A stretch of 26,556 nucleotides of DNA from a virus. Each line of letters begins with the position of its first letter. Positions within the stretch are counted from its first letter, which is position 1. The notes beneath the pieces are model-generated. The model did not search any database. It saw only the letters and a program-made list of their open reading frames with translations, and was not told where the DNA came from. Positions 4,733-25,381 of this stretch are shown in pieces. Made by a program: the position numbers and the translations under genes. The stretch spans positions 1 to 26,556 of the IMG/VR virus record IMGVR_UViG_3300049846_002767; one strand, given 5' to 3'.

Positions 4733-4737
4733 CGCGT

Positions 4738-6000: not shown

Positions 6001-6005
6001 GCAAC

Positions 6006-6458
6006 ATGCCAATCTACGACATCCACATTCAGCTTCTCGACCCGGTAGAGCAGACGTATGGGTCGAACTTCAGCTTCGGGCTGTCGTCCCCCATTTTGGT
6101 GACGGGCTTTCAATCGCTCGTGAACCGGTGGATGAAGATCTTCATGACGCCGAAAGGTTCGCACCCCGTCAAGCCTCAACAGGGGACGGAGTTCGCGTAC
6201 CTTATCGGGTCCAACGTCGCAGACGTTCAATCACTGCAAGCTGTCATCGCCGAGTACATCGACGATGCTACCGAACAGGTTCAGACAATCGACCGCTCTT
6301 CGCCGTGGTTGACGAAGGATCAGCGCCTACGCAGCGCCGCCCTTTTGCAGTTCAACGCGATCAACGCGACGAGCATCGAATTCTTCGTTGAGCTGACCAA
6401 TCAAGCGGGTCAGCGTCTATCCGTCCTGATTCCCTACCGGGTGAGCGCCGATGGCTGA
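6006..6458 (+). CDS. baseplate wedge protein, gp25/GPW family-like
   Basis: A 150-residue protein that matches the T4 gp25/GPW_gp25 wedge family in size, position and a key motif. The stretch 'NRWMKIFMTPKGSHPVKPQQ' followed by 'GTEF' corresponds to the conserved 'L.T.kGerp..pe.G' region. In T4 and related contractile systems this protein joins the wedge and helps nucleate sheath assembly. The central helical segment (residues about 70-112) and the C-terminal beta strands fit the fold. It begins 5 bases after the previous stop, in the sequence TGAGCAACATG, and overlaps the baseplate J-like gene by 8 bases. That is the usual gp25-then-gp6/J order in myoviruses and type VI-like machines. Confidence 0.8.
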   Translation: MPIYDIHIQLLDPVEQTYGSNFSFGLSSPILVTGFQSLVNRWMKIFMTPKGSHPVKPQQGTEFAYLIGSNVADVQSLQAVIAEYIDDATEQVQTIDRSSPWLTKDQRLRSAALLQFNAINATSIEFFVELTNQAGQRLSVLIPYRVSADG

Positions 6459-8493
6459 GTACGATATCGACCGCAGCGCCGCAACTGAAGCCGGCGAGCT
6501 GCTTCGCGATCTACTGCGGACCGAGGTCCCAACGGGTGACTTTACCGAAGGTAGCGCGAACAGCGACATCCTGATTGATGGTCACGCCATCATCACGGGC
6601 TTCCTTCGGCAGCAGATCAACCTGATCCGCGACCGACAATCGCTGCTGACGCTGAAGAACTTGCCGGAGTCTGAGAGCGTCTCTGACGCCGCAGACGCGA
6701 TCCTGTCCAACTTCTTCCGGACGCGCGCGCAAGGCAAGTTCGCCAAAGGTGTCGCCACCCTGCGATTCAGCCAGCGGCTAGACGTACTCATTCCGCGCGC
6801 TGCTCGTTTCTTCCGAACCACCTCGCTGGTCTTCTACATCGACAGCGCCAGCGATCTGTTCATCTCTGCTGCTGACCTACGGCCGGACCTAGACGGGAAC
6901 GGGCTCGTGACGTCGTACTCGACCACGGTCTTCATGACTGCGGCGCGCGTGGGCGGGGACTACAACATCACGCCTGGCCGTTTTGTATCGTACGACCGGT
7001 TCAATGCGTATCTCGTCTCTGTTGAAAACCTGGCCCGCTTTCAAGACGGCGCAGGGGTTCAATCCACAGCTGACTTCGTCTCGCGCTCGACAAACGCAAT
7101 TTCGTTGCGCGCGCTGATTAACGATCGCTCCAACGACGTGACCTTGCTGGAGCAGTTCTCCGACATCGAGTCGACTACCACCGTCGGCTACGGTGACCCG
7201 GAGATGATTCGTGACCTGGTCACAAACGTCGCGAACAGCGCGGCGCTGCACGTGGGCGGGCACATGGATGTGTTCGTACGGCAGCCCATTCAGCAGGTTG
7301 TGGAACGCCTGACTGTCAACACGCTAACGCCACGTAATGATGATCGAGTGCTGATCCTGCGGCACACTACCACGACACCCTCTGGGTCGTTCATCACCGC
7401 TGGAGTTGCTCCCGGAGACATTCTGCGAATTGAGTCCGGCGTGCCAGACGCTCCGTTCCAGTTCACGATCGTCGCGGTTCGTGCCACGGAGCTGGAAATC
7501 GCACCGCGAACGCCGTTCTCTGTTGCGACTGATGAGCTAACGACGCCGACCCCGGTCGCGTACACGGTGGGTAACAACTATCCGAGCTTCAACAACAAGG
7601 TGAGCGTGGTTGCCACCTTGGATGCGAGCACGTCTCGCCAATTCTCAGAATTCAACCGTATTCAGCTACCGGGACGGCCGACGTACCTGATTTCGCGCGT
7701 AGAGCTGGTCCCGCCTTTTCCAATCGCCCTGAACGGCTACGCGGATTCGCTCACGGGAAACGTCGTTTTCACGACGCGAAAAAACGCGCCCACGCTAGCC
7801 GCCCCACCAATCGGCAGCGATTTGAGCTTCTACGTCCAAGCCAAAAATCCAGCAGAGTCTCAGTCCGATCGCTCGGTCATGATGCTCGAAGTAGGCTGGC
7901 CGGCTGTAGATCTGACTGGCTGCACGCTTGAGGTCACGTACGAAACCCCCAGCGGTTTCGACGCAGTGTCCAGCTACGTATCGAACCGCTTCAATCGCCC
8001 TGCGTGCGCAAACACGCTGACTCGCGCAGCGCATCCAGTTTACGTCTACGCATCCATTCCGTACCGCCAACGCGCGACGTCAGGTGATCCGCTGTCAACG
8101 GCGGTCCCGACGTTTGATCCAGACGCAGCCGCCGATCTATTGCAAACCTACGTCAACAGCTATCGCGACCTTGAGCCCCTCGACGTCAGCTTGCTGGCGA
8201 CAAAGGCCCGCGAAACATCAGCCGCCATCGCGTCCATTTTGACGTTCAAGGTGCAGTACTGGCTGTACCTGCCGGATGGCCGGTACATGGCCTTCGAGAC
8301 CGACGATAAGATCACCATCTATCCAGACGAGGTTACCAGCAGCGCCAAGCTCCTGAACCCAGGGGACTTCGGGCTTCCTACGACCGGCTACGGCGCAAAG
8401 CTTCGGCAGCTGTTGACGGATCAAGGCTTGAGTGACCGTGTTACGCGCTACCGCGTTACCGATGGTGGGCTCGTCTTCGAGCGGAGGGCCTGA
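6451..8493 (+). CDS. baseplate J-like protein (gp6/gp47-type wedge)
   Basis: A 680-residue protein resembling Baseplate_J family wedge proteins, which form the ring linking wedges around the hub. The N-terminal part contains a long helix (about 45-75), then beta segments. The segment 'VGGDYNITPGRFVSYDRFN' (near 165-185), leading into 'VSVENLARFQDGAGVQS', is the typical J-type pattern in which a glycine-rich 'GGxD' feature is followed by a region reading 'STADFVSRS'. A beta-rich insertion at about 314-356 ('AGVAPGDILRI') resembles a module found in other proteins of this window. The C-terminus ('LQTYVNSYRDLEPLDVSLLA') resembles the J C-terminal helical/beta domain. The gene overlaps the gp25-like gene by 8 bases and is followed, after TGATC, by the GTG of the next gene. 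Longer than many J proteins (about 350-480), but within the range of large phages. Confidence 0.8.
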   Translation: MAEYDIDRSAATEAGELLRDLLRTEVPTGDFTEGSANSDILIDGHAIITGFLRQQINLIRDRQSLLTLKNLPESESVSDAADAILSNFFRTRAQGKFAKGVATLRFSQRLDVLIPRAARFFRTTSLVFYIDSASDLFISAADLRPDLDGNGLVTSYSTTVFMTAARVGGDYNITPGRFVSYDRFNAYLVSVENLARFQDGAGVQSTADFVSRSTNAISLRALINDRSNDVTLLEQFSDIESTTTVGYGDPEMIRDLVTNVANSAALHVGGHMDVFVRQPIQQVVERLTVNTLTPRNDDRVLILRHTTTTPSGSFITAGVAPGDILRIESGVPDAPFQFTIVAVRATELEIAPRTPFSVATDELTTPTPVAYTVGNNYPSFNNKVSVVATLDASTSRQFSEFNRIQLPGRPTYLISRVELVPPFPIALNGYADSLTGNVVFTTRKNAPTLAAPPIGSDLSFYVQAKNPAESQSDRSVMMLEVGWPAVDLTGCTLEVTYETPSGFDAVSSYVSNRFNRPACANTLTRAAHPVYVYASIPYRQRATSGDPLSTAVPTFDPDAAADLLQTYVNSYRDLEPLDVSLLATKARETSAAIASILTFKVQYWLYLPDGRYMAFETDDKITIYPDEVTSSAKLLNPGDFGLPTTGYGAKLRQLLTDQGLSDRVTRYRVTDGGLVFERRA

Positions 8494-8495
8494 TC

Positions 8496-11400
8496 GTGCC
8501 GTACTTGCCCGACCCAGGACAAAACTTCATCCACGCCCTTTCGGATTTCTGGTCGGTGTTCTTCAAGGACACGACGCAGATTCAATCCTTCTACAAAGGC
8601 TCCGAAATCAACCTCGGGCAGCTGTACTTGGAGCTACTTGAAACGGTGTTGGGGACCAGCCTCCGACACGCTCCCGTATTTTCCAAGCAGTACTACAAGC
8701 AGTTCACCGTCGGTGAGGACGAAGTGTTCTTCGTCGAGGGCGCCAGCCCCGATGACGACGTGTTCGCCTACACCGCTCCGGGACTGCCTGTGGTCGACGC
8801 ACCTGTCCTCATGAACCGCGTCGTCAGCCCCACGCGCGTACTTGAAAAAGGCCGCGACTTCGACGTCCTCAATGCGGCGCTTCGCTTTTTCGACGACCCA
8901 TTCGACGTAGATGGCGCTGGGTCCACGCTCACCAAATTCCCCGTGCGGACGGTAATGAAGGCGTTCGCCGCAGAGTACCGCGACCTGCTACGGCGAAATT
9001 GGAAGACGGCTGGAGCAAAGGTCGGCGACACATTCCGGCTTCAAGTTGTCGGCGGCGCCCCATTCGAATCCAGAATCACGGGCGTGAACGGGGACACGCT
9101 GTATTTGGGCACTACCACGCCCGAGTACACCGCTGATTTCCGGCGAAAGTCGTTCCAGGTGTCCGTGCTTCGTACACCTTTTGACGCCGTGAAAAATGGG
9201 CTGGTGCTTCCCGATCATCCCGCAATGGTGACTCGCTTCAGCGGGAACACCACCGACGTGGCGCTAGTGCCAGCTAGCAGCAACATCGACTTCAGCGCTG
9301 AGCCTTACTACAAGGGGGCTTGGACGCCGCTGACGTCCTACGCAGTTGGGGACATTGTCAACGATCCGGGCACAAACCCTGTCCGAGCCAAAACAACGCA
9401 CACATCCGGCGCCGTCTACTCGGCCGTGGATTGGGAACCGCTCAACAACAAGTACATCTACATCCACCACCCTGACGACCCGCAAAACGATGGGTTGTAC
9501 AACGTGGCGTCTGTCACCCCTACCACGTTGACGTTGTTCCGGCCTGCGCCGTTCGTCACCGCTGGCAGTATGCGTGCTATCGCGTACATCGTCGGCTACA
9601 CCTCAGGGCTCATTGGGAGCCCTAAACCTGAGCTGACTCTGGCGCACACGTTCCTCACCCCGGGCACCGTCGAAGTGCTGGCCCGACGCAAACACGACGT
9701 CTACGTGCAACAAGCCGGGGCAGTCGTCGTGAAGCCAGCTAATCAGGCCGTGGAAGAAGGCGTCGACTACACCGTCGATTACGTGAATGGGACGCTACAG
9801 GTTTTGAGCGGATGGGACCCTGCGTTTGCAGGTCGCATTAGCTACGAGTGGCGGAATGAGGTCGTCTCATACACCCACACGGCCAAAGGAACGTGGGTCG
9901 CTTTTACGTTTTACGATGTAGGCGACATCGCGTTCACAGGTCCTGGGAACGCGACGGCCTACACCTGTTTGACCGCCAACTTGGACGGCGTGTTCGACCC
10001 AACGAAGTGGGTGGCGGTCACAGGCCCGTTTGCGTTCGACCAATCTCACCCTGTTCGCCAATTGGCGCTGTGGGGTGCAGACGTCCTGCTCGACCGAGAG
10101 ACGCTGTACACGAACTTCGGTTATCTGCTGGCCGCCAAGCACCCTTCGAGCGAGCAGTATCGTGCGTTCTTGCGCGGCGTAGCTCAGCTGTTTGTGATCG
10201 GCCCAGCATTGGAGCGTTTCGAGAGCGCGCTCAATGTGATGGCTGGCTTGCCCGTAATCCGAGACGATGGCGAGGTCTTGCGGGCGTACAACAACGGGAC
10301 GTTCTTCTCAGCGACCGACGGTCAAACGTTGGACTCGGATGAAGGCCGAGACGGGACGCTAACCGCAATCACGTCGCAATTCAGCGCTCCGACAGCTACG
10401 TTTTACGCGTCTGACGTCGGAGCGATTGTTCGTGTGCGCACCGGCGACGCGACGTACACAGACTACACCGTAACGGCCTACGTCTCTCCAACCACGGTCG
10501 TCGTCACGCCGCCTCCGGCGGATGGATCTGGCTTGACGTGGCGCTTCACGCACGTCGCGCTAACTCAGCGCTTTCGTACGTCGAGCTTCATCTTCACCGA
10601 CGCCGATTTGAACGCGGACATCGTCATTACAGGCGCGACTCATGCGCGCAACAACGGAACGTTCCGCATCCTCGGCGTCGAAAACGCCACAACCGTAGTC
10701 GTAGATGCGCCTTACGGCCTGACAGATGAAACAGGGCTGTCGTGGTCACTGACGCGCGACAAGGCACAGACAATCACGACGTCCAGGGCCGCATACAAGA
10801 TCCCCTACACCGTCCCGGTGCGTCCAGACATCGCGTTGAGCGGCAGCTTGAATACGCTGACGTTCTCAGCGTTCGAGACCATCACGGATGCGTTTAAAGT
10901 CACGGATTACCTGCAAGATCCGACGTGGTGGCACAGCACCTCCATTCCGCCCGAGCTACTGGCGCTACAAACAGAATCAACCGCGCGACGTCGCGCGTCC
11001 GCCGACATGGTTGAGCACCGGCTTTCTCCTCTAGATGAAGCCGTAGTGGGTGATTTTGGTCTGGCCGTCGGCGTAGACGACGAAGGCCGTCCTGGCACAT
11101 CTCGCACCGGACCCGCGACATGGTTTGGTGCCAACGACCTCGTGCTGTCTTTCAGCCCTGGAGTGCCAGTAGCAAACTCCAGGGACGTGGGACGCTATGT
11201 GCTCGTCGCCGGGCCTAACTTCTCTGCTCAATTCCAGATCATCGGCGTGAATGCGGCAGGCACTCTGCTGACTCTTGCAGATTTCCCGCCTCCAGAAATG
11301 ACTGGAATGATCCCGCCTGTCGCAATGACGGCCACGCTAGCTCCGCTGCTCTTCCGTCGAACCATCGGATTCATCATGATGGATCGATTCCTGAAGTATC

Positions 11401-12065
11401 ACGCGCTGCGTGTGGAGGTACACGAGTCAACGCCCATTGCGTCCGACTTCATCGGTGAGGCGACCGCGCTATTGCGTGAAGCAAAACCTGCGTTCACGCA
11501 TGTGTACTTCGAGACGCCGTTGAACTTCTTGGACGTGATCCTGGCCGCCGACGACACCACTGTAGGTGTTGGCTTCCCGGCGCTTGAGCCCATCTTCGCT
11601 CCGGACCCGACGGCGCTCGTAGGGCCGCCGAGCTTGCTACAAGTGGACGACGCTTACCGGTTCGAGCTGTTGTCGCAAGTCATTCCTGCGGCCCCCGGCG
11701 TCACCGCGCTCGCGCCCGTGCTTCCAGCCCCAGGCGCACCTCCTCGCACGGTACGGTTTCACGTCGTGAAGGGGTGGTTTGATTTCGCTGTTCTGGTAGG
11801 CGGCCGACGAATCGCCGAGGGTTTCGAGTACACGCTGGACCGTGTAAACGGAACAGTGACTGTTCTAACGCCCCTTCCTGGCCCAGTTACGTTCAACTAC
11901 GTAGCGGTGATTCTTCGTACGCGCATGCCAGGAGACCCGCTAGATCCCGGCGAAACCCAGGTTTGCGCCGGGGGAGCAGACCCGACTATCGCGCTGGCGT
12001 CGGCGCAAACCATCTACGACGCAGGTTTGATCGACAGGGCTGTACAACTTACAATTGGCCCCTGA
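8496..12065 (+). CDS. large modular baseplate/tail protein with CBM5/12-like repeats
   Basis: A 1189-residue protein that probably forms a peripheral baseplate wedge or tail appendage. It is directly downstream of the J-like gene, the place of gp7-like proteins in contractile phages. Start is GTG with GGAGGG seven bases upstream. The protein is a mosaic. (a) Two carbohydrate-binding CBM5/12-like motifs, W276...Y282-x-x-G-D286...W313 and W467...Y473-x-x-G-D477...W505. (b) Three '(E)xGxDYxxDxxNGTLxVL' segments, at about 116-137, 420-442 and 1107-1130. (c) Three copies of a beta module with an 'xxDVGxxVxV' core, at about 620-690, 685-755 and 882-935. (d) A segment 'LREAKPAFTHVYFETPLNF' typical of large phage baseplate proteins. 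No enzyme motif is visible. CBM-like motifs suggest glycan contact at the cell surface, but such modules can also be purely structural. Confidence 0.65.
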   Translation: MPYLPDPGQNFIHALSDFWSVFFKDTTQIQSFYKGSEINLGQLYLELLETVLGTSLRHAPVFSKQYYKQFTVGEDEVFFVEGASPDDDVFAYTAPGLPVVDAPVLMNRVVSPTRVLEKGRDFDVLNAALRFFDDPFDVDGAGSTLTKFPVRTVMKAFAAEYRDLLRRNWKTAGAKVGDTFRLQVVGGAPFESRITGVNGDTLYLGTTTPEYTADFRRKSFQVSVLRTPFDAVKNGLVLPDHPAMVTRFSGNTTDVALVPASSNIDFSAEPYYKGAWTPLTSYAVGDIVNDPGTNPVRAKTTHTSGAVYSAVDWEPLNNKYIYIHHPDDPQNDGLYNVASVTPTTLTLFRPAPFVTAGSMRAIAYIVGYTSGLIGSPKPELTLAHTFLTPGTVEVLARRKHDVYVQQAGAVVVKPANQAVEEGVDYTVDYVNGTLQVLSGWDPAFAGRISYEWRNEVVSYTHTAKGTWVAFTFYDVGDIAFTGPGNATAYTCLTANLDGVFDPTKWVAVTGPFAFDQSHPVRQLALWGADVLLDRETLYTNFGYLLAAKHPSSEQYRAFLRGVAQLFVIGPALERFESALNVMAGLPVIRDDGEVLRAYNNGTFFSATDGQTLDSDEGRDGTLTAITSQFSAPTATFYASDVGAIVRVRTGDATYTDYTVTAYVSPTTVVVTPPPADGSGLTWRFTHVALTQRFRTSSFIFTDADLNADIVITGATHARNNGTFRILGVENATTVVVDAPYGLTDETGLSWSLTRDKAQTITTSRAAYKIPYTVPVRPDIALSGSLNTLTFSAFETITDAFKVTDYLQDPTWWHSTSIPPELLALQTESTARRRASADMVEHRLSPLDEAVVGDFGLAVGVDDEGRPGTSRTGPATWFGANDLVLSFSPGVPVANSRDVGRYVLVAGPNFSAQFQIIGVNAAGTLLTLADFPPPEMTGMIPPVAMTATLAPLLFRRTIGFIMMDRFLKYHALRVEVHESTPIASDFIGEATALLREAKPAFTHVYFETPLNFLDVILAADDTTVGVGFPALEPIFAPDPTALVGPPSLLQVDDAYRFELLSQVIPAAPGVTALAPVLPAPGAPPRTVRFHVVKGWFDFAVLVGGRRIAEGFEYTLDRVNGTVTVLTPLPGPVTFNYVAVILRTRMPGDPLDPGETQVCAGGADPTIALASAQTIYDAGLIDRAVQLTIGP

Positions 12066-12074
12066 GATCGCCTG

Positions 12075-12563
12075 ATGAAGAAATCCGTAAGCCTCGACTC
12101 AAAGCCAAAGCTGAGGGGCGATCTGACGATCGTGATCACGAACGTGATTACGGGCCGCCAGACTCGTCATCACGTTCGGAACACGATCACATACGATGGT
12201 CTGAATTCGGCTCTGTATCTATGGGCTCAAGACGCCATCACGGTGACCGACTACCGAATCGTCAAACTGGTGCCGGGCACTAATCCCACACCGCCTACGC
12301 GCGGAGACGTGAGTGTCATCGCGCCGGTCCTGGGGGCCGACATCAACCTCACCGCGCCGGATCGCTCCATCAGCCCCGCAACGGGCGAGCTGATCATCAC
12401 GGGTACTCTGCCGCAAGTCAGTCCTGCAAATGGGTCCACGTTGACCGAAGTAGGGCTGGTGCTTGGAAACGGTCAGCTGTTTGCCCGACAAATCCACCCC
12501 GCGTTCCTGAAGCAAATCGCGTTCACGCTGACGTACTCGTGGCGCATCGCCATGACGGCGTAA
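12075..12563 (+). CDS. small tail/fibre-associated protein
   Basis: A 162-residue protein, recognisable as a type often found next to phage tail fibres but without an assigned biochemical role. The N-terminal 'NTITYDGLNSALYLW' (about 36-50), a central Pro-rich loop, and a C-terminal stretch 'STLTEVGLVLGNGQLFARQI' ending in a beta 'FTLTYSWRI' are its typical pattern. It is probably beta-rich, with no signal peptide or membrane segment. It lies 9 bases after the previous gene and 9 bases before the fibre-like gene. GAG in TGAGATCGCCTGATG may act as a weak ribosome binding site. It may be a fibre connector or trimer-cap protein; that is inference. Confidence 0.55.
   Translation: MKKSVSLDSKPKLRGDLTIVITNVITGRQTRHHVRNTITYDGLNSALYLWAQDAITVTDYRIVKLVPGTNPTPPTRGDVSVIAPVLGADINLTAPDRSISPATGELIITGTLPQVSPANGSTLTEVGLVLGNGQLFARQIHPAFLKQIAFTLTYSWRIAMTA
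12130..12178. repeat. nested palindrome and inverted repeat cluster
   Basis: A perfect 12-base palindrome TCGTGATCACGA (12130-12141) overlaps a perfect 10-base inverted repeat, CGAACGTGAT (12139-12148) and ATCACGTTCG (12169-12178), with a 20-base spacer. It lies 55-105 bases into the small tail-protein gene. Confidence 0.5.
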
Positions 12564-12572
12564 GGTACGACC

Positions 12573-15500
12573 ATGCCAAAGATCTACGACGAACAAATCG
12601 ACTTCAAGCAGGGTGGCGATAACGGTCAGAACACGGCCGGCTCGATTCAGCCCATTGCCGACGCCGAGCCTTTGTGGAGTGTGGCCTTGGGCCGCTCCCC
12701 AGAGAATCTGCGTAAGCGCACGGAAGTGCTACGCGCCGCGATCGACGAACTTCGCTACTACGCAGACTACGACAGGTCGTTGGTTCTACGGTCCAACGCC
12801 ACGTTTACGTTCATCGAACCGGATCCGCTAGGAGATCCTGGTCGGAAGATCCTGACCATGTCTGGGGATGATCTATGGATCTACCCCACGCTGACCCCTG
12901 GGGCCCTTAGCGGCGGCAGGCATCGCGGCGCCCGGATGTTCTTGCAGGTCGGCCCGAGCTGGGTCCCGTACAGCGGGACAGCGGGAGTTAACGACCTGAC
13001 CTTCACTGCGTCAGCGCAATACACGGGTATGCGCGGCTACGCTGACGCCGACGACTTCGCCATCGACGTGAACGGGGTGTCGCTAGGCGCCAATCGCCTG
13101 ACGCTCACGCTAGTCGCAGACCCTGCGGTAGCGGGCGGCGTCGGGACCATGGTCGCCACCGTGACCGGCACGCCAAAGGTCAACATTACGCTGACCTACG
13201 GCACGCTCACGCCCACCACCGTCAATGACATCATCGCGTTCGTCAACGGTGACCTTACGTCGCAAGGTACGTACGGGCTTGCGCACCTCATTCGAGCGTC
13301 TACGACCAGCTTGGGCACGGGCGCACCAACACCGTTCGTCGATGGTGTCTTTCAAGGTGGATACGACGCCGAAGCCTACAAGGTCGTGCTGGCCACGCTG
13401 TCGGCGTTTTTCAACGCGATGGATGCCGGGACTTTCCCCAACCGTCTACGTGAGGGCGAAGGGCTGGCGTTGAGCTACACGCCGGGCCCAGTAGAGCGCG
13501 GCGTCGCTACAGCAAAGGGCGGACGGCGTCAGTCACTCTTCGACTGGCCGTCGTCGCGAATTGGCGCCAGTAGCTCCAATGTCGCCCCCAGCCCAGGGTG
13601 GAATCTTTTCAACACCGGCCGAGAGCCGGAGAAGATTCCTGGGTCCGTGCCGATCGGTAAGATGATCGACGGTAAGTTTGTGTTTATCGACGGCACGATC
13701 GTGGACTCTGCGCCGATTTCACTCGGTGAAAGCAGCATCACGTTGGACAGGTTGGCCGCGACTGCTCCGGTTCCTGGAGCCGCGCTGGTTAGCTACGGCG
13801 GATCCGGCCCGTGGAATGCTGACGCCAGCGCCTCGGCCAACCCAGACATCCCTGCGGGCACGGTTCAAGCGACCCTAGATTCGGTCGTGTCGGATCTAGC
13901 CAGCGAAGCTGCGACCGATAGCGGAACGCGCCGCGTAGGTGGAGAGCCGATCGCGGGCAGCGTATCAGCGCTAAACGTCGCGCAGAACGTGACGGCGGGC
14001 TCCGTGCGTGAGCAGCTGTCGCAGATTCTAAACGCTACCGCTGGGCTCACTCAGGGCGGAGGCGTGAACGCACGCGTCAGCGAGTACGGGCACGTACTGA
14101 AGGGACCTCGGCCTATCACGAAGGACCTAAGCGTACTCTCGCTTCCGTCGGCCGGCGGCCAACGGTTCAGCGGCCTGATGACGGGCGGTACGTTCGAACT
14201 CATCGCGGCGCCTGCACGTACGGCTCGCGAAGAGATGATGGACTTCCTGATTCAGCCGATCGGTGGAGTAACCCTGGCGGGTGTCCCCGTCGTGCTTCCG
14301 GCTGAATCAGTAGTGATCGGATCTGCTGCCGATCGGCTCCTAATGACGGGCGTGAACATCGCCGCCCGATACCCGTTCATTCAAGCGCTGTTCCCCACGA
14401 TGAACACCTACTCGCAGGTTCAGCCTGCGAACAAGGCTTTCTCGGGGTGCATCGTCGTACTGATCACGGGCGCAGTCGCCGCAGGCAACGACGGTGACGG
14501 CTACTACTACTTCGAGAAGTGCACGAACGGCGTTACGTTTGAGATCCAGCTCAAGCGCCTCGATGGAACCGCCGCCGTTTTTACGGGCACCAACTTCGCC
14601 GCTGCGGTGTTGGTGTTCTGCAACGCGCGAGTAGTAGGAAACAACCCCTCGTCGCATCGCGAGCGTGTGTTCCACATCTCGGAGAATTTTGCGGAGAAGG
14701 TTATTGCGATGCCGGGGCTCACGCAGCCCTGGGTTGAGACCTATCACGCGAACATGTCCAGCGTCGGCGCCGACGCGATCAAGGGCAGCTACATGCTGTC
14801 CAACAAGGCCGTTTGGAAGCCCACAGAAGCCACTCCGCGTGACACGGACAACATCCTCGGCACGACCGACAAGGGGCTGCTGGACGGAGTGGAAGACGGT
14901 ATCGCGGTCAACGCGTCGCTGAGCCACCATCACGGCCTTACGTCGTCACGTATCGAGAAGTCTACCAACACCCCGCTCACATTCATCGGGGCTGCGGCGA
15001 GCGCCATCACGTTGAGCCAGCTCGACGACTACATCATGCTGCCCACGCCGCCACCGGGCTACACGGCTACAGCAGCGATCATGCTGATCAAAATGAACTT
15101 GGACAGCACCGCCGCCGCTCTGGCGCTGGCGAGCATCGCCGCGCGCGTGAGCGCGTCGTATGGATCGACGTACAACGGCGCCAATGCGTTGATGGCGATT
15201 CACCAGCAGTACCTGAAGCAGAACGCTGGTGGTGTCGCAGATCTTCGTGACTTCTACGTCGAAGTCACCCTCCAACCCGACGCGGCGCGCCAGATCGCGT
15301 TCCACCTCACCACGTCCACACCGGATGTGAACTTGGTGGTGGCTGGGTTGGAAGTGTCCTGCCGTTTCTTGGTGCTATCGAAGACCACCATGCTGGACGG
15401 ACAGTCCGGAACCGCCGCCAGCATCGGCGGAGTTATCGCTGCGGAGCAAACCGTCACGGGCCTCACGGGCATGACGGCTGGTTCCGTAGGGCGCTTCTTG

Positions 15501-15656
15501 GAGCTCAGCAACGCTGCGTCCGCTGAGAACAACGGTGTGTTTTTGATCACCGCGTACAACAGCCCCACCAGCGTCAACATTCGCAACCCGCTCGGAACGG
15601 TTGGGGCTGACGGTAACAACCCCAACATCATTTGGAGCGAGCGGATCGTGAACTAA
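12573..15656 (+). CDS. tail fibre / baseplate appendage protein
   Basis: A 1027-residue protein, the last gene of the left structural block, probably a fibre or appendage. The N-terminus (about 1-60) would attach to the baseplate. The middle has 'IPAGTVQATLDSVVSDLAS' and 'NVTAGSVREQLSQILNA' (about 430-490), a repeated 'aGtVqaaLdsiv' pattern seen in phage tail proteins. The C-terminal 75 residues contain 'MTAGSVGRFLELSN' followed by 'ENNGVFLITAYNSPTSV', a copy of the beta module also found in neighbouring proteins. The start ATG has AAGG eight bases upstream. Its TAA stop shares bases with the TAG stop of the convergent reductase gene, leaving no intergenic terminator. No enzyme or intramolecular chaperone motif is evident. 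Receptor binding is a plausible but unproven role. Confidence 0.6.
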   Translation: MPKIYDEQIDFKQGGDNGQNTAGSIQPIADAEPLWSVALGRSPENLRKRTEVLRAAIDELRYYADYDRSLVLRSNATFTFIEPDPLGDPGRKILTMSGDDLWIYPTLTPGALSGGRHRGARMFLQVGPSWVPYSGTAGVNDLTFTASAQYTGMRGYADADDFAIDVNGVSLGANRLTLTLVADPAVAGGVGTMVATVTGTPKVNITLTYGTLTPTTVNDIIAFVNGDLTSQGTYGLAHLIRASTTSLGTGAPTPFVDGVFQGGYDAEAYKVVLATLSAFFNAMDAGTFPNRLREGEGLALSYTPGPVERGVATAKGGRRQSLFDWPSSRIGASSSNVAPSPGWNLFNTGREPEKIPGSVPIGKMIDGKFVFIDGTIVDSAPISLGESSITLDRLAATAPVPGAALVSYGGSGPWNADASASANPDIPAGTVQATLDSVVSDLASEAATDSGTRRVGGEPIAGSVSALNVAQNVTAGSVREQLSQILNATAGLTQGGGVNARVSEYGHVLKGPRPITKDLSVLSLPSAGGQRFSGLMTGGTFELIAAPARTAREEMMDFLIQPIGGVTLAGVPVVLPAESVVIGSAADRLLMTGVNIAARYPFIQALFPTMNTYSQVQPANKAFSGCIVVLITGAVAAGNDGDGYYYFEKCTNGVTFEIQLKRLDGTAAVFTGTNFAAAVLVFCNARVVGNNPSSHRERVFHISENFAEKVIAMPGLTQPWVETYHANMSSVGADAIKGSYMLSNKAVWKPTEATPRDTDNILGTTDKGLLDGVEDGIAVNASLSHHHGLTSSRIEKSTNTPLTFIGAAASAITLSQLDDYIMLPTPPPGYTATAAIMLIKMNLDSTAAALALASIAARVSASYGSTYNGANALMAIHQQYLKQNAGGVADLRDFYVEVTLQPDAARQIAFHLTTSTPDVNLVVAGLEVSCRFLVLSKTTMLDGQSGTAASIGGVIAAEQTVTGLTGMTAGSVGRFLELSNAASAENNGVFLITAYNSPTSVNIRNPLGTVGADGNNPNIIWSERIVN

Positions 15657-18600
15657 GTGCTGCTCTCGATGCGCGCCTCACAAAGGCCGCCCGAGCAGAA
15701 CTTATCGTCGGTATCGTGGCTCACCACGAGCCCGTCATAACGCACCGGCGCCAGACGGGAACGTGCGGCCTCGTACTCCTCCTTCGTGCAGGGGATGTAC
15801 GGCGCTTGGGGGAAGCCGTGCGAGGAGTAGGGGAGGAAGCTAACGCACTTCCACTGCCCCTCGTAGACCTCCAGAACCCGTGCGACATCCTTTGCCTCGG
15901 AGGCTTGGAAGGTCAGCGTGGCGCTCACCATGTTATCGCTCCAGTGGCGCTGAAGAGCAGTGAACAACGCCGCCTGCTCCCACAACGTCATGTCCGTCGC
16001 CAAACGAACGTCGTCTGGAGCTTTCGCAGGGAAATAAACCACCATCGTACGTGGCGTCGTACGGTCAGGCTCCACGCGGTAGCCTGCGTTGCGTAGCGCC
16101 TCCACGAGAGGCGAGATGTGGTCGATGCGGATCGTCCGCATGTAGTAACGATCCGTGGGCAGCTTCATGCCGCCTTCGACACCGACCAACAACGGTGTAG
16201 TACCGCCGGGCTTGATGGACGTCTTCTTGATGGACTCGTTGACGCCGAGCCACGCGCTGTACTCGGTGTCCCACTTGCAGATCTCGGCGTAGCCCAGATT
16301 CCACCACTCGATGCACTCCTGCATGCCGAGCTTTGAGTACATCTCGATGATGCCCGCCATCGAGGTACCAATACGGCGGTTTCGCACCATGACCGCGTTG
16401 GTCTTTTGGTTGTGCGTCGGGATCAGAGTCACCGCCTTGGCATAGCGGTACGCGTATTTCAGCGTGGTCAGGAAGTCGTCCAGCGTCAGGTTCTTCGTGG
16501 GGTACGTTTCGACCAAGCAGCACAGCTCACCGTCGTGAAGCGTCTGTTCACCGCATTGTCCCGTAACGATCCCTTCGAAAGTTCCACGATGCGTAATGGG
16601 TTCTTCGAAGCAGTAGACGACGTCAGCGGACCCCACCTTCTCCACGGCCTCGACCGATACAAAGCGCCGCGCGTCCCGTTGTGGTCGCAGATTTGGTAGA
16701 TCAAGCCGATGCGTCTTCATGCCGAGGCGCACCAACTGGTGCGTATCCGCCGCATTGATCAACAACCGATAGGTGGACTGGCACGCGTAATCCGCGTGGC
16801 CCCCCTTACCGTCGGGCATCGATCGAATCGTCGCCTCACGCTCCTCGGTCACCTTGGCCTGAACACCGAGAGTGGTGAGCATCAACCGCACCTCCAACAA
16901 AAAGGCGCGATTGATACTGGTCAGCTGCAAGCACACGCTGTTCGGATTGCGAAGCACGCAACCATCCGCGTCGAACAAGCCCGCCAACCAAGCGAGCCGT
17001 GCAGCCACAGAAAGATCGTGACGCACGACGTACTTGTCAGGCAGCCCGCGAGGCAGGCCGACGTATACGCGATCGTACGCGTCCACAGCACTAACCGACG
17101 TCGTATCGAGATGCGACACCAAGCGCTGTTTCACGCCGTAAAGAAGGGCGCTCTTGGAGCCAGTCTCCGCGTTGACCTGCCCATCTCCGCAGAAAAAACC
17201 ATGCGTGTACGCCTGGGCCCAATCGCATCCCGTTTCCACGATTGGCATCGCGAACTTTGCCAACGTGTCGCCAGGCTGCAAATCGATCGCGCGCACAACT
17301 TCCTCATCACCCCCCTTGTGCTTCGGCGCAAGATGCCACTTGTGGTACTCGGTGCACACCAAGGACGTGCCGTCCGAGAGCTCCACACGCACGAGCGGCT
17401 GATCGTGGCCCGTGACCTTAGGCGTCACAGAGGCCCAGGACTCGCCGTTCCACACATCCACAGAACGATCCAACAGCGTATCAATCGCTTGATATCCATT
17501 CCGAGTCAGGATTCGCGTCCCTGCGGGCACGCACGGGTTGAACCCCTTGGCCTGACGATCCTTGTTGTTCGGTGGATCAATCAGGCGCCCATACTGACGG
17601 AAGACCTCAGGCCACCCGTACCCGGGCTCGCCATTGCGAAGCGTGTGCGGCACGATCTCCGAGTAGTCCGTCTTACCGACCTTGCACAGAACGGTGTTGT
17701 TGGACGCCCACCGGTGGTTGTTGATCGGAAGCGCACGAATCTGAGCGTCAATAGCCGCCCACTCAGGATTGTTGGAGCATAGCCGCGTGATGCGAGCTTG
17801 GTGACGGTCGATGCGCGATTGATAGTCGCTGTACGTCTTGTCGAGCACGCTCAAGTTCAGCTTGGCCCGCTGCGCTTGCAGCCGCGCGATAGCCTTCTTT
17901 TCCTTCTGAACCCCAGGGATGCTGTCCGCGATCTGCGCCAGCTTTGCGTACAGCTCGTTCTGCTGGGTGTTGTCCTTCAACGCCAGAAAAGTTGCGTCAT
18001 CGGGATCCCCTAGCGAGATCTCGCTGCTGCGCCGTACGTTCCCGGCTACAACGCAAACGCCGATGAGATTCATGACGTCCACGATAAAAGCCCCGTCGAT
18101 CTTTCGATCGACGTAAGAAAGGCACAGCCGTTCCAGTTCCATCAGGAGCCGCTTCAACGGCCCAGGGCCGCTCGCAGTACCCCCAAACGTCCGCAACGGC
18201 TTTCCTTCCTTGCGGATCTTCGAGTAGTCCCAACCCCCCGGCAGCTCATCCTTGCCCACGAAAGCCCGCAGGAGCTTCTGTACGGCGCCAATCCATCCCT
18301 CACGGGTATCGGGGATGACGTGCGCTTCGACGCCCCTAATGGGCTTTTGAAGCGTCACCTTGTCGGCGCCAAGCAGATCGAAGCCCATGCCGACGCCCAG
18401 CATCGAGTAATCCATGAGCATGACAAACGGCTCGTCGAAGTGTTCGACGCTGAGATGCTCCGTCGAAACAAAGCCGCAATTGTTCAGGATGCCGCTCCCC
18501 TTCAACTCCAAGGCCTCAGTTCCCATACCCCAAAGCCCGCGTCCGGGCGGCGTGAACTTGAAGGCCCAGATGCGCCGGAACATCTCCTGCGCATGCTCTT

Positions 18601-19048
18601 GCTCTTTTTCATCGCTCCAAGGCTGCCCCGTGTCACGCACGTGCTGCTTGAGCACCGAGCTGACGCCTTCCACGACACGCACGCACGTCTGCCAGTACTC
18701 TTCCGTCGTCTGAGTACTCGTCCTCGCGATCTGCTCTGCCGCGACGGCGCTCACCCCTAGATAGCGCTGAGCTTCGTCCGCGAGCTGCTTCTTGTCTACG
18801 CGGCGCGCATACGTGCGCTTGTACGTCACGTACGAAAGCAGCCCGTACCCCCAAGCCGGCTGCTGCCCGATGTAGCGCCTGACGAACTCCGGATCGAGCT
18901 TGAACCGATTCTCGTCGCGCAGCGTGTAAACGCGCTGCTCCTTAGGAGCCTTTGGCTTTGATCGAGATGCGCGCTTCGCCTCAGGTTGCGGAACGCCGTT
19001 TAGCTTCTTGGAAGAAGGCAATGGAGTATCGAAGAGCCCCTGCATCAT
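15653..19048 (-). CDS. class II (adenosylcobalamin-dependent) ribonucleoside-triphosphate reductase with intein
   Basis: A 1131-residue precursor; about 805 residues after splicing, near the 739 of Lactobacillus leichmannii RTPR. It reduces ribonucleotides to deoxyribonucleotides for phage DNA synthesis, using B12. Visible residues are C191 (in 'GILNNCGFVST', matching C119 of RTPR); thiyl-radical C832-G-E834 (matching C408/E410); C843 in 'ELCCLVETYP' (matching C419, with the same 11-residue spacing); and the redox tail pair C1118/C1123 (matching C731/C736). 'GVCVVAGNVRRSSEISLG' and 'HRWASNN' are RTPR hallmarks. Residues 361-438 form an extra charged helical, coiled-coil-like insertion. An intein (506-831) interrupts FNP/CGEQ at the active site. 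The ATG has GAGG seven bases upstream. It lies 15 bases after the RuvC-like gene, so they are probably co-transcribed. The host must supply or take up cobalamin. Confidence 0.93.
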   Translation of the reverse strand: MMQGLFDTPLPSSKKLNGVPQPEAKRASRSKPKAPKEQRVYTLRDENRFKLDPEFVRRYIGQQPAWGYGLLSYVTYKRTYARRVDKKQLADEAQRYLGVSAVAAEQIARTSTQTTEEYWQTCVRVVEGVSSVLKQHVRDTGQPWSDEKEQEHAQEMFRRIWAFKFTPPGRGLWGMGTEALELKGSGILNNCGFVSTEHLSVEHFDEPFVMLMDYSMLGVGMGFDLLGADKVTLQKPIRGVEAHVIPDTREGWIGAVQKLLRAFVGKDELPGGWDYSKIRKEGKPLRTFGGTASGPGPLKRLLMELERLCLSYVDRKIDGAFIVDVMNLIGVCVVAGNVRRSSEISLGDPDDATFLALKDNTQQNELYAKLAQIADSIPGVQKEKKAIARLQAQRAKLNLSVLDKTYSDYQSRIDRHQARITRLCSNNPEWAAIDAQIRALPINNHRWASNNTVLCKVGKTDYSEIVPHTLRNGEPGYGWPEVFRQYGRLIDPPNNKDRQAKGFNPCVPAGTRILTRNGYQAIDTLLDRSVDVWNGESWASVTPKVTGHDQPLVRVELSDGTSLVCTEYHKWHLAPKHKGGDEEVVRAIDLQPGDTLAKFAMPIVETGCDWAQAYTHGFFCGDGQVNAETGSKSALLYGVKQRLVSHLDTTSVSAVDAYDRVYVGLPRGLPDKYVVRHDLSVAARLAWLAGLFDADGCVLRNPNSVCLQLTSINRAFLLEVRLMLTTLGVQAKVTEEREATIRSMPDGKGGHADYACQSTYRLLINAADTHQLVRLGMKTHRLDLPNLRPQRDARRFVSVEAVEKVGSADVVYCFEEPITHRGTFEGIVTGQCGEQTLHDGELCCLVETYPTKNLTLDDFLTTLKYAYRYAKAVTLIPTHNQKTNAVMVRNRRIGTSMAGIIEMYSKLGMQECIEWWNLGYAEICKWDTEYSAWLGVNESIKKTSIKPGGTTPLLVGVEGGMKLPTDRYYMRTIRIDHISPLVEALRNAGYRVEPDRTTPRTMVVYFPAKAPDDVRLATDMTLWEQAALFTALQRHWSDNMVSATLTFQASEAKDVARVLEVYEGQWKCVSFLPYSSHGFPQAPYIPCTKEEYEAARSRLAPVRYDGLVVSHDTDDKFCSGGLCEARIESST
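16556..17533 (-). other. intein with LAGLIDADG homing endonuclease, inside the reductase
   Basis: Residues 506-831 (326 residues) of the reductase precursor. It starts with C506 in the block-A pattern 'CVPAGTRILTRNGYQAI'. It carries two LAGLIDADG-type motifs: 'THGFFCGDGQ', with G621-D622-G623, and 'LAGLFDADG' at 688-696. The block-F/G end is 'VVYCFEEPITHRGTFEGIVT', then G830-Q831, followed by extein C832. The last intein residue is therefore Gln rather than Asn, and the penultimate residue is Gly rather than His. Gln-ending inteins are known, for instance in a viral reductase intein from an iridovirus. Splicing should regenerate FNP-CGEQ with the catalytic Cys as the +1 nucleophile. The insertion point is the most conserved site of the enzyme, typical for inteins. 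Confidence 0.9.
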
Positions 19049-19063
19049 CAGTGCACCTCAGAA

Positions 19064-19648
19064 TCAGAGATTGGGTTGCTTGCTAGGACGAACGCGCTGC
19101 TTCTTTTTGCGTGGCTCCAGTACGGCACGTACTGTCTCCAGCTCGCAGCGGCGCGTTAAGGAAGATTGATGATCGAGCGCCCACGCAAATCGCGCGAGCA
19201 TAAGAGCGTCTGCCGCGTCGTCGTCATCCCCCAGCATGACGCCGAGGTGCGTCTTCACGGCGTGAAGGATCGCCTCTTTGTCCGCAGAGCCTGAGCCTGT
19301 GGCAAAGCGTTTTAGCTGCGTCGGGGGTACGACGATAGGTTCCACGCCCGAACAATGGTAGATCGCCAGCTTGGCGACCGCTGACGCCTCGCCGAGGTCG
19401 AACTCGCGGTGCGTGGAGTTCAGGCTAGGCCCCTCAATCGCAGCGCGTCGGACGCTAGCCCCGGAGCACAAAAGCGGGTGAAGCGTTGAGCGATACCACT
19501 CAAAAGACTCGTAAAGCCTCGCCGCGCCGCGCGAGTTACGGCTTACACTATTTGCGCCGACGAACAGCACTTCCCCAAGCCCGTTCAGCACCGCGAACCC
19601 AGGGCGGCGGACCGAAGAGTCCACACCCAGATAGAGATCAGTCGCCAC
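19064..19648 (-). CDS. RuvC-like Holliday junction resolvase
   Basis: A RuvC-fold nuclease of about 194 residues that would cut branched DNA during recombination, or before packaging. Numbered from the chosen start, the acidic residues are D10 in 'LYLGVDSS', E72 in 'AAIEGPS', and D144 and D147 in 'DDDDAADALMLA'. The 'PTQLKRFATGSGSADKEAI' segment (with K114) is the RuvC 'P.q.K....G.G.AdK' signature. The C-terminal tail is basic (KKKQR). The GTG start at 19648 has GGAGG five bases upstream; ATG codons at 19651, 19660 and 19666 are in frame but too close to or upstream of this GGAGG. It is divergent from the plus-strand gene at 19650 with only one base between starts, and lies 15 bases upstream of the reductase gene in the same direction. 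Confidence 0.88.
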   Translation of the reverse strand: MATDLYLGVDSSVRRPGFAVLNGLGEVLFVGANSVSRNSRGAARLYESFEWYRSTLHPLLCSGASVRRAAIEGPSLNSTHREFDLGEASAVAKLAIYHCSGVEPIVVPPTQLKRFATGSGSADKEAILHAVKTHLGVMLGDDDDAADALMLARFAWALDHQSSLTRRCELETVRAVLEPRKKKQRVRPSKQPNL

Positions 19649-19649
19649 C

Positions 19650-20600
19650 ATGCCCTCCATCGTCATCCGAATTCGCCAGAAAGGGTACGTCCGTTCCGCT
19701 GGCTACCAAGCGGTGAACTGGGCCGTGACGGTACCTGTGGCGGATCCGCCGAGCTCTCCGCTCATCGGTACGACACCCCTCTCGTACGCGCCGCTATTCG
19801 TCGTGCGCGATTCGGGCGGGTTCGACTCCTTGGAGCGCGTCGCGACGCTGCAAGATCTCGTGGCGCTACCACAAGCCGAGCTGCGATTCCTAGACGTGCG
19901 TGGACCAGGGGGCGATGCGGCATTTGCCCCTGCGGTTGTGAACGGGCCGCTAGGGCCATTTGCTGGGGATACGTTGACGTTTCCAGACACTGCGGGCCGC
20001 CTGTCTTACTGGTTGGAAGACAGCCCACCGTACAACTCCAACAGCTTCGTGGTCAAGCAAAGCGCGATTCGAGCCCAAGGAACAAACCCTCAGATTCTAA
20101 CAGGAAACAGGCTACAGCTCCCGAACTATACATTTACACAAAACGATGTAAATCGGTGGGTCTACTTGTCCGGTTTCTCGACCCTCGCGTACAACGGCTT
20201 CGCGCAGATCACCGCCTTCCTTGGCAATACCGCGACGATCAACAAGACAACCTCGTCCATCGAAACTGGAACCTCGTGGCGATTCCCGTACATCGAAATT
20301 GATACGGGCACGAATCCCCTAGTAGAGCCAAGGTTCTTCCCAACGCGCGAGCGCAACCTCGCGTGGGAGCTTCGACGCGGCGCCGCCTTGATCGCATCCG
20401 CTACGTCCGGTGGCGCAACAATGCGAGACGTAGAAGCCTCGCTGGTACGCTCCCTGCGCTACACAAACCTCGCGTCGTCCAATCAAGCTGCCTTGGATCT
20501 AATGGCAGCTGTGCGCAGCGGCGCCTACAACCTTCAAGCAGAAGGTGCGCGCAACAACACGGACTTCACCGTACTCATCACCTCGACCTACGGACCCTGA
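19650..20600 (+). CDS. probable virion structural protein (unknown)
   Basis: A 316-residue protein not recognised as a known family. Residues 49-74 contain 'LFVVRDSGGF' and 'LERVATLQDLVALP', a motif shared with the next two genes. Residues about 152-213 contain a copy of the beta module seen in the large baseplate and fibre proteins ('NDVNRWVYLSG', then 'AYNGFAQITAFLGNTATI', then 'TGTSW'). The C-terminal 60 residues are helical with a polar end. The coding DNA around 20086-20153 is noticeably AT-richer than its surroundings and contains a perfect inverted repeat. It is the first plus-strand gene after the minus-strand cassette, starting within the cassette's leader, and ends two bases before the next gene's ATG. 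A structural role is inferred from the shared modules. Confidence 0.5.
   Translation: MPSIVIRIRQKGYVRSAGYQAVNWAVTVPVADPPSSPLIGTTPLSYAPLFVVRDSGGFDSLERVATLQDLVALPQAELRFLDVRGPGGDAAFAPAVVNGPLGPFAGDTLTFPDTAGRLSYWLEDSPPYNSNSFVVKQSAIRAQGTNPQILTGNRLQLPNYTFTQNDVNRWVYLSGFSTLAYNGFAQITAFLGNTATINKTTSSIETGTSWRFPYIEIDTGTNPLVEPRFFPTRERNLAWELRRGAALIASATSGGATMRDVEASLVRSLRYTNLASSNQAALDLMAAVRSGAYNLQAEGARNNTDFTVLITSTYGP
19654..19658 (-). promoter_or_regulatory. ribosome binding site deciding the RuvC-like start
   Basis: GGAGG on the minus strand lies 5 bases before the GTG at 19648, ideal spacing. It is only two bases from the ATG at 19651, and downstream of the ATG at 19666. It lies within the first codons of the divergent plus-strand gene. 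Confidence 0.6.
20132..20153. repeat. AT-rich perfect inverted repeat
   Basis: ATTTACA (20132-20138), an eight-base spacer, then TGTAAAT (20147-20153). It lies inside a coding region, in a locally AT-rich patch of an otherwise GC-rich window. It resembles a dyad operator in shape but has no known match. Confidence 0.4.
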
Positions 20601-23076: not shown

Positions 23077-23757
23077 GTGAACGTAAAAGGCGCGCTCAGC
23101 GATCCCCTTCTAACGTCGTCTGTGGCGCTAGAAGCTGTGAAGAAGCTTCTAGGTCCCACAGTACTGGCGTGGGAGCCGGAGACAATTCGCCTTGAGTTGA
23201 CTCGTCGCGGCATCACCGTAGACGACGGAGTGATGGCTAAGATCCTATCGGCGATTACCATCGTGACGACTCGCGCTTGGACCGCAGATCACGACGTGCT
23301 GTTCGCCTTTGCTGTAGCGTGTTGCGGTGTACCGGCGGACGCTGAAGCTCTTCACCATCCAACGCCAGAACAGCTCTGCTGGGCGATCCATGAGATCGCA
23401 GCCCTAGTCGGTGCCGCTGTTAATGACGACGAAGGGTTCGACCCAGACACTGTAGATCCTGCTATCGCGGTCGTGCTCCACGATGAAGGCTTCATGGTGA
23501 CGCCTGATGAGCTGCGATTCGCACAGGACGCGCTAGACCGCAGCAACCGGTACAGTTTGGACGCAGGCCTAAAAAAGCGCGTGCTCGACGCCTGGAAGAA
23601 GCTGGCGACTCTACCTGTCAATGAGCTGCGCAAAGAGCTGGCCAAACTAGACGAAGACCCATACGGTGTTCAGCTTCGACGGCTGGGTGATTGTCGGCTC
23701 TACGTAGCCGAACACGAAGAGCGGCGGGCTAAGCAACATGGGCTTCTTAACGGATAG
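23077..23757 (+). CDS. unknown protein upstream of the terminase
   Basis: A protein of about 226 residues, immediately before and overlapping the terminase large-subunit gene by 20 bases. The position would suit a small terminase subunit or a packaging partner, but I see no helix-turn-helix or other TerS signature. Residues about 25-70 ('PETIRLELTRRGITVDDGVM') and 95-120 ('PTPEQLCWAIHEIAALVGAA') are amphipathic helices. The C-terminus is a charged helix ('LRKELAKLDEDPYGVQLRRL'). No membrane segment or signal peptide is present. GTG at 23077 is preferred over GTG at 23071. Composition matches its neighbours. Function is unknown. Confidence 0.5.
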   Translation: MNVKGALSDPLLTSSVALEAVKKLLGPTVLAWEPETIRLELTRRGITVDDGVMAKILSAITIVTTRAWTADHDVLFAFAVACCGVPADAEALHHPTPEQLCWAIHEIAALVGAAVNDDEGFDPDTVDPAIAVVLHDEGFMVTPDELRFAQDALDRSNRYSLDAGLKKRVLDAWKKLATLPVNELRKELAKLDEDPYGVQLRRLGDCRLYVAEHEERRAKQHGLLNG

Positions 23758-25381
23758 CAGTGGCCGCGTAATCGCGCGGACACGTTCTGAACTCGCGAGG
23801 TCGCTGCTCAGGATCGACGGGAAGCCTGTCAACCTAGACGACTACCCGATGTTCTTGGACATCTACGACGGCGCCTACAAAAAGACGCTGTTGAAGACGT
23901 CGCGACAGGTAGGGAAATCAACGACGCTCTCGAACTTCTCGGTCGCGGAGTCCATCGCGATCGAGCACTTCAAGACGTTCTTCATTTCGCCTTCCCAAGA
24001 GCAGACGCACAAGTTTTCTACCGAGCGCGTCGGTAAGACGATCCAGTACTCGCCCCTCGTCAAACGTTACTTTTTGGGCGACGCGGCCAGCAATCGCGTC
24101 ATGGTGCGCTCCTTCAAGAAAGGGTCGACCATTTATTTCTCGTATGCAGAAGATGACGCGGATCGCTGTCGTGGTATCACCGCCGACCGTCTCTGCATCG
24201 ACGAGGCACAGGACGTCAACCTGGAGGCCGTGGTCCCCGTCGTCAAAGAGACGATCGCAAACTCAGAGTACGCGTATGAGATGTACTGCGGCACTCCGAA
24301 GACGATGGAGAACGGCATCGAGTCGATGTGGCAGAGCTCCACTCGCACAGAGTGGGCCATGCGATGTCCGAGCTGTCGCAAGTACAGCGTGCTCGTATCC
24401 GAGAAGCAGCTGGGCAAGCTTGGCCCCATCTGCACTAAGTGCAAAAGCTACTTGAACCCGCGTGAGGGTGTCTGGGTCGATACGAATCCAGACAAAACCG
24501 TAAAGACCAAGGGCTTCCACATCTCACGACCCATCATGCCCAAGTCCGTCCCCATGTGCTGGCCTGAAGGGCCTGCGCGGGACAAGGCGCAGGAAAAGTG
24601 GGACGAAGTTCTAGACAAGATGGAAGGCCCCAACGCTTACCCGTTGGCCATGTTTCGCAACGAGGTGCTGGGCGTCAGTGACTCAGAGGGTGTACGGCTT
24701 CTAACCAAAGAAGACCTCGAAGCCCTTTGCGACGGGCCGCCCCTTTCTGTCGTCCCTACCGCTGCAAACATGCGCGACGTGACGAAGATCAGCGCAGGCT
24801 TCGACTGGTCTGGGGGCGGCACTGAGATCAAGTCGCGAACCGTTGTGACAATTCAAGGCCATCTGACGAATGGCCGCATTCGGTTGCTCTACTTCAAGAT
24901 CTTCCCGGGCACTAACCCGATGGATGAGCTCAACGAGATCACGGCCGTAGTCAAGAACTACGACTCAAAGATGGCCATGTACATGGCTGGCGACGCCGGA
25001 GAGGGGAACATGAACATGGACTCCCTTCGCAATCGCTTCCAGCGTCCGGCGCGCATCCTGAAGCTGCGCTACGTGGGCAATCAAATCGTCTACATCCAGT
25101 GGAACTCAAAGGGCTCCTTCTTCAGCGTTCACCGCACGCCCGCAGTGGACTCAATGATGACCAACCTCAAGGGCGGCCTGTATCAATTCCCGGCAGACAA
25201 AAAGAGCATGGAAGTTGCGTTCTCGGACATCCTCAACGAGCACGTCGAGATCACCCGTGAGGGGCGCAAACGCTGGGACCACGCACACAACAAGCCTGAT
25301 GACTTTTTGCACGCGTTGATCTTTGGGCGAATCGCGTTGCAGGTCAGCACTGGCGAGCTGAACTTGGGCAGCGTACTGTAG
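23738..25381 (+). CDS. terminase large subunit (DNA packaging ATPase/nuclease)
   Basis: A 547-residue motor that pumps DNA into the prohead and cuts the concatemer. The ATPase has Walker A 'TSRQVGKST' (54-62) and Walker B 'LCIDEAQD' (152-159) with D155 and catalytic E156, and a coupling-type 'CGTP' (184-187). A four-Cys zinc knuckle, C210-x2-C213 and C232-x2-C235, lies between the ATPase and nuclease parts; such knuckles are seen in some phage terminases. The RNase-H-like nuclease has acidic residues D356 ('FDWSG'), D419 ('MAGDAGEG') and D521/D522 ('KPDDFLHAL'). Length is typical. The ATG is within AAGCAACATG, like the gp25-like gene start, with no strong ribosome binding site; it probably depends on coupling to the overlapping upstream gene. 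It ends six bases from a convergent minus-strand gene, so no terminator fits between. Confidence 0.95.
   Translation: MGFLTDSSGRVIARTRSELARSLLRIDGKPVNLDDYPMFLDIYDGAYKKTLLKTSRQVGKSTTLSNFSVAESIAIEHFKTFFISPSQEQTHKFSTERVGKTIQYSPLVKRYFLGDAASNRVMVRSFKKGSTIYFSYAEDDADRCRGITADRLCIDEAQDVNLEAVVPVVKETIANSEYAYEMYCGTPKTMENGIESMWQSSTRTEWAMRCPSCRKYSVLVSEKQLGKLGPICTKCKSYLNPREGVWVDTNPDKTVKTKGFHISRPIMPKSVPMCWPEGPARDKAQEKWDEVLDKMEGPNAYPLAMFRNEVLGVSDSEGVRLLTKEDLEALCDGPPLSVVPTAANMRDVTKISAGFDWSGGGTEIKSRTVVTIQGHLTNGRIRLLYFKIFPGTNPMDELNEITAVVKNYDSKMAMYMAGDAGEGNMNMDSLRNRFQRPARILKLRYVGNQIVYIQWNSKGSFFSVHRTPAVDSMMTNLKGGLYQFPADKKSMEVAFSDILNEHVEITREGRKRWDHAHNKPDDFLHALIFGRIALQVSTGELNLGSVL

Follow-up and report, generated by a model that had tools for sequence, protein, structure and literature searches.

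The stretch of DNA analyzed here (the window) is 26,556 nucleotides long and spans the whole of a 26.5-kb virus fragment, IMG/VR record IMGVR_UViG_3300049846_002767; to judge by its predicted genes, it is part of a tailed-phage genome. Besides genes for a terminase, a resolvase, and a series of large proteins, it has a single open reading frame of 1,131 codons that codes for a ribonucleotide reductase precursor interrupted by an intein (Table 1).

Table 1. Features of the reductase gene, its intein, and the rest of the window (residues are those of the precursor)
Feature	Position	Strand	Basis or remark
Large proteins, mostly without assignment, including a weak tape-measure match	63-15656	+	
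Intein-containing precursor of a class II (RTPR-type) ribonucleotide reductase	15653..19048	-	1131 aa
C-extein, residues 832-1131, begins CGEQ	15656..16555	-	stop codon 15653-15655
FCSGGLC C-terminal Cys pair (C731/C736 equivalent)	15680..15700	-	motif match
Cys843 in GELC (C419 equivalent, redox Cys)	16520..16522	-	1L1L alignment
Cys832, +1 nucleophile and reductase radical cysteine (C408 equivalent)	16553..16555	-	1L1L alignment
Intein, residues 506-831, 326 aa, Cys1 to Gly-Gln	16556..17533	-	predicted ~35.8 kDa
Intein end Gly830-Gln831 (penultimate Gly, terminal Gln)	16556..16561	-	sequence
Intein block F, VVYCFEEPITH, with Cys813 (F:4) and His820	16589..16621	-	Cys in 92/101, His in 57/101 relatives
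LAGLIDADG motif 2, AGLFDADG, residues 689-696	16961..16984	-	within Pfam LAGLIDADG_3 match, residues 684-768
LAGLIDADG motif 1, HGFFCGDG, residues 616-623	17180..17203	-	motif
Intein block B, TEYH (TxxH), residues 566-569	17342..17353	-	almost all relatives have TxxH
Intein block A, CVPAGTRILTRNG, Cys1 nucleophile	17495..17533	-	Cys1 in 101/101 aligned relatives; intein_Nterm
N-extein, residues 1-505, ends AKGFNP	17534..19048	-	aligned to 1L1L up to NP/C408
Cys191 in LNNC (C119 equivalent, redox Cys)	18476..18478	-	1L1L alignment
RuvC-like resolvase	19064-19666	-	adjoins reductase
Terminase large subunit (gpA-type)	23738-25381	+	

Profile searches with the precursor recovered the phrog_367 ribonucleotide reductase family (E = 1.3e-104), the NCBIfam adenosylcobalamin-dependent RTPR family TIGR02505 (E = 8.1e-79), and the Lactobacillus leichmannii RTPR structure (PDB 1L1L; E = 5.3e-74), along with the Pfam domains RNR_Alpha and RNR-II_ins_dom, the latter being the B12-dependent insertion domain. 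The TIGR02505 hit is a clear family match whose 265.6 bits, obtained with the intein left in, lie under the strict equivalog cutoff of 340 bits. These matches bear out an earlier sequence-only reading, which had taken the host protein to be a phage class II reductase. In the L. leichmannii enzyme, Cys408 is established as the thiyl radical cysteine, Cys119 and Cys419 as the redox pair, and Cys731 and Cys736 as the C-terminal pair. Because all five reductase cysteines are kept across the two exteins, the gene looks functional once spliced. The joined exteins come to 805 aa (predicted ~90.9 kDa), the length that the sequence-only reading had given. Around reductase residues ~365 to 445 (window about 17700-17960, minus strand), the N-extein has ~75 extra charged, probably helical residues relative to most phage class II relatives.

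The insert, with a G+C content of 59.5% against 59.9% for the host gene, has the junctions AKGFNP/CVPAGTRILT upstream and FEGIVTGQ/CGEQTLHD downstream (the slash marks the splice site), and its in-frame removal restores a perfect NPCGEQ motif, the intein-free relatives having NPCxEQ at this point. Its extent and junctions had been given correctly to the base, and its identity as an intein is upheld by its nucleophiles, its block motifs, and full-length relatives with common boundaries. The sequence marks of a class 1 intein are all present, namely, Cys506 at position 1, Cys832 at position +1, the TxxH motif, the terminal Gln831 (Gln and Asp being known alternatives to Asn), and the precise insertion, with the exception of the usual but not obligatory penultimate His, in place of which there is Gly830. 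What had been described as an extra Gly is therefore a replacement of the usual His, with no residue added. The His of block F is at its usual place (His820, intein position 315). The domain profiles recovered LAGLIDADG_3 (Pfam; E = 9e-12) and, slightly below its cutoff of 24.5 bits, the NCBIfam model intein_Nterm (22.0 bits; E = 2.4e-4). Both homing-endonuclease motifs, which had been noticed from the sequence, are intact and retain their catalytic Asp residues. An AlphaFold2 model of the intein, computed from an input with 41 relatives, has a pLDDT of 92.6, and Foldseek searches with it returned as the best PDB matches the homing-endonuclease inteins TliVMA, PI-SceI, PhoVMA, and PI-PfuI, as well as the LAGLIDADG endonuclease I-DmoI. 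PI-PfuI (1DQ3), an archaeal homing-endonuclease intein from a reductase, is also the best PDB match of the family by sequence; at ~14% identity by fold alignment and with its archaeal source, it is a different element. These observations confirm the insert as a class 1 intein of full length, whose LAGLIDADG endonuclease domain is intact and has both motifs.

The sequence-only reading had further regarded a terminal Gln as a known but uncommon splicing variant and the Gly before it as making this intein a test case. A tblastn search of 50,697 phage records with the intein gave a match in 417, of which 333 cover at least 80% of its length; full-length relatives with identical boundaries thus occur in hundreds of records, far beyond what chance would give. 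Full-length inteins with these boundaries at the same host site are 37 to 75% identical to the window intein. Further scans of IMG/VR and of 84,980 bacterial and archaeal genomes enlarged the set to 102 inteins distinct at 90% identity. Their last two residues are GQ in 62, GN in 28, SQ in 4, SN in 3, AQ in 2, and FN, MN, and LN in 1 each, whereas none of these 102 nonredundant relatives, which come from phage records, IMG/VR contigs, and the genomes of bacteria, ends in His-Asn. The scan pattern for the bacterial and archaeal genomes contained TG[QN], which favors such ends, but the pattern for the viral scan was free of the C terminus, and the 77 viral inteins taken alone divide into 42 GQ, 24 GN, 8 SQ/SN/AQ, and 3 FN/MN/LN, again with no His-Asn end. 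Among the 101 aligned relatives, the terminal residue is Gln in 68 and Asn in 33; it is preceded by Gly in 89 (88%) and never by His. Among representatives, the TGQ/C junction is found in the phages ICP1, Aeromonas PhAER-3, Staphylococcus V1SA22, Rheinheimera Barba1A, and Vibrio eugene, and in all members of a chromosomal cyanobacterial clade (Microcystis, Crocosphaera, Calothrix, and others); TGN/C is found in Zion, CcrColossus, and phiCbK, and AGN/C in SelmaRatti. Rarity of the Gly-Gln end is thereby ruled out, as it is the commonest end of its own family. By sequence comparison, the window intein is an ordinary member of a large, known family of phage and bacterial reductase inteins.

This census bears directly on whether the intein is degenerate, with the Gly-Gln end a product of decay and the precursor cleaved or dead. 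The missing canonical His-Asn end would fit such decay, but Gly-Gln is the majority end both in phages and in the chromosomal cyanobacterial reductases, both endonuclease motifs and all of the reductase cysteines are intact, and the dN of the intein is low. Against its nearest relative, L001 (an IMG/VR locus with a 75% identical intein), the NG86 dN is 0.19 for the intein and 0.23 to 0.45 for the exteins, a comparison that is only indicative because dS is saturated and dN alone is usable. The low value is consistent with purifying selection on the intein, and we regard decay as highly improbable.

The radical-cysteine site is common to the family in class I (SNL/C) and class II (NP/C) reductases. 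In the window, Cys832 aligns with C408 of 1L1L, in agreement with the proposal that the +1 Cys and the radical Cys are one and the same, and we infer from the position of the insertion that the reductase cannot assemble correctly before splicing. Intein-free alleles are abundant among relatives: the NPCxE motif is uninterrupted in 74 of the 80 extein relatives, and loci L032 to L034 are likewise free of the intein. No intein-free allele above ~50% extein identity was found among the extein relatives, which leaves recent homing hypothetical. Alternatively, the intein might splice but have an inactive endonuclease and be inherited vertically. The lack of a close intein-free allele fits this alternative, motifs alone are no proof of activity, and all five inteins of the window clade occupy class II NP/C sites. 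Set against these points are the catalytic Asp of both motifs and the patchy presence and absence of the element among relatives, and we consider purely vertical inheritance not very likely.

Insertion at an essential active-site cysteine also invites the idea of a conditional splicing reaction, dependent perhaps on redox state, that gates the reductase through its radical Cys, a hypothesis raised in the literature for active-site inteins (PMC8229266). However, homing elements prefer active sites in any case, because such sites are conserved and loss must be precise, and no sign of conditional control is seen in the sequence. A regulatory role is accordingly improbable in our judgment.

Members of the family also occur at other reductase sites. 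In five loci (L068, L069, L072, L087, and L093), a family member lies one codon later, at NPC/SEI, with Ser at +1 and the radical cysteine as the last N-extein residue, and in two others (L008 and L108) members occur in the small subunit, NrdB, at NIH/SETY, with a +1 Ser and a Gln end. Other intein types also occupy NP/C of phage class II enzymes, with the ends HN (L182), VGQ (L179), and IGQ (L180). In the closest relative, L001:5797-10269 (IMGVR 3300005686_000126), the first redox cysteine is the site of a second intein (LNN/CFVGREQ to TGN/CGFVST), a site that is empty in the window (LNNCGFV, residues 188-194). Four inteins interrupt the phage class II reductase encoded by the 1,781-aa open reading frame of L165 (IMGVR 3300025661_000373), in the LNN/C region and at HRWA/SNNS, GNP/C (where the intein starts with Ser), and ELC/C; the inteins at ELC/C end in THQ/C in L165 and TYQ/C in L177. 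At the end of locus L003, a further intein start, CVSGDTRILTRDG, directly follows the second redox cysteine (FELC/C) and is cut by the contig end.

Taking the observed anatomy, boundaries, homology, conservation, and empty alleles together, we are confident that the window contains a full-length, mobile class 1 intein that belongs to the phage and bacterial reductase family and interrupts a phage B12-dependent reductase just ahead of its radical cysteine; it most likely splices via Gln cyclization and spreads by homing. Its splicing chemistry, the residue assisting Gln, and its homing activity can be proposed from the family and from published inteins. Cys1 (C506) would form a thioester, from which the N-extein would pass to Cys832 by transthioesterification. 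The side chain of Gln831 would then attack its own carbonyl, with the intein leaving as a glutarimide; help would come from block F, through its F:4 Cys and His820, rather than from a penultimate His. An S-to-N shift would yield FNP-CGEQ and restore the radical cysteine, and the LAGLIDADG domain would cut an intein-free NPCxEQ allele, into which the element would home. The idea of Gln cyclization without the assisting His holds for the penultimate position, but the block F His820 is present, and its counterpart in the Pho Pol-II intein is credited with Gln activation and is placed 3.4 A away from the carbonyl of the Gln in the crystal structure (PMC8229266). Such a helping role is not general, because the block F His is absent in 44 of the 101 relatives. 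No link between this His and a terminal Gln was seen among the 101, which comprise 38 with His and Gln, 19 with His and Asn, 30 with Gln alone, and 14 with Asn alone.

In a quick maximum-likelihood tree of the 101 inteins, from which the last four residues were left out, the window intein clusters with four other class II NP/C inteins (99% SH-aLRT), all with TGQ. At least about 19 changes between Gln and Asn are needed on this tree, compared with a mean of 28 (range, 20 to 32) for shuffled labels, the number being approximate because many forks are weak (37 open). The distribution of Gln and Asn thus has some phylogenetic signal and yet shows frequent interchange, and this family-wide interchange is the sole mildly new point of our analysis. 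It is possible, and we suggest it only tentatively, that in the reductase inteins Gln is the default, well-optimized leaving residue, that the C-extein is released without recourse to a penultimate His or, in 44% of the members, to the block F His, and that another conserved feature (the block F Cys, an FNG turn, or the penultimate Gly) does the work, with Gln and Asn interchanging freely.

The premise that this intein is a rare test case does not hold. Experiments on inteins with a terminal Gln or a penultimate Gly have already been published (PMC4031507, PMC5050341), and relatives or comparable inteins have essentially been put through the proposed Gln cyclization test. About 5% of functional inteins deviate from the penultimate His (PMC4031507), and a penultimate-Gly phage intein splices completely, while its Gly-to-His mutant is slower (>5 h to ~50%; PMC5050341). 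Inteins and introns splitting phage reductase genes have likewise been surveyed (PMC3653736). The window intein alone is one more member of a large family; what the family offers is natural pairs for measuring C-extein release without the textbook His-Asn end, such as the sister inteins L078 and L096, one with a final Gln and the other with Asn. For Gln release with neither His, the ICP1-type members, with Gly-Gln and no block F His, are better suited than the window intein.

Gln-ended inteins have been described from the reductase of Chilo iridescent virus (CIV; IIV-6, an insect virus) and from archaeal Pol-II (PMC549080). The intein of the CIV large subunit shares the terminal Gln with the window intein; it splices, and better with its native Gln than with Asn (PMC4031507). 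A putative Gly-Gln end is given for it in PMC3556154, a paper that also gives Gly-Gln for phiCbK, in conflict with the YLTGN/C of the deposited sequence (L229). The Pho and Pab Pol-II elements also have a terminal Gln but, unlike the window intein, are archaeal mini-inteins; the former ends in His-Gln, as read off a cloning primer (PMC8229266), rather than Gly-Gln, and the latter is slow with Gln (PMC4031507).

Closer counterparts are found in the phages themselves. Annotated phage examples of the family are those of ICP1, SelmaRatti, and CcrColossus. The NrdA inteins of Vibrio phage ICP1 (ORF203), Aeromonas PhAER-3, Staphylococcus V1SA22, and the Rheinheimera Barba phages are 38 to 42% identical to the window intein over their full length and agree with it in the site before the radical Cys, the TGQ/C end, and the LAGLIDADG domain, but their host is a class I NrdA (SNL/C) rather than a class II enzyme, and the ICP1 intein is without the block F His that the window intein has. 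Escherichia phage SelmaRatti, Caulobacter phages CcrColossus and phiCbK, and Corynebacterium phage Zion have inteins of the same family at the same site, two of them already annotated as inteins in their records, which end in Gly-Asn in contrast to the Gly-Gln of the window. Nearest are the class II inteins of the IMG/VR loci L001, L003, L004/L005, and L039, which are 75 to 56% identical to the window intein, share its NP/C site and TGQ/C end, and make up with it the clade with 99% SH-aLRT support; L001 and L003 carry more inteins at other reductase cysteines, where the window has none.
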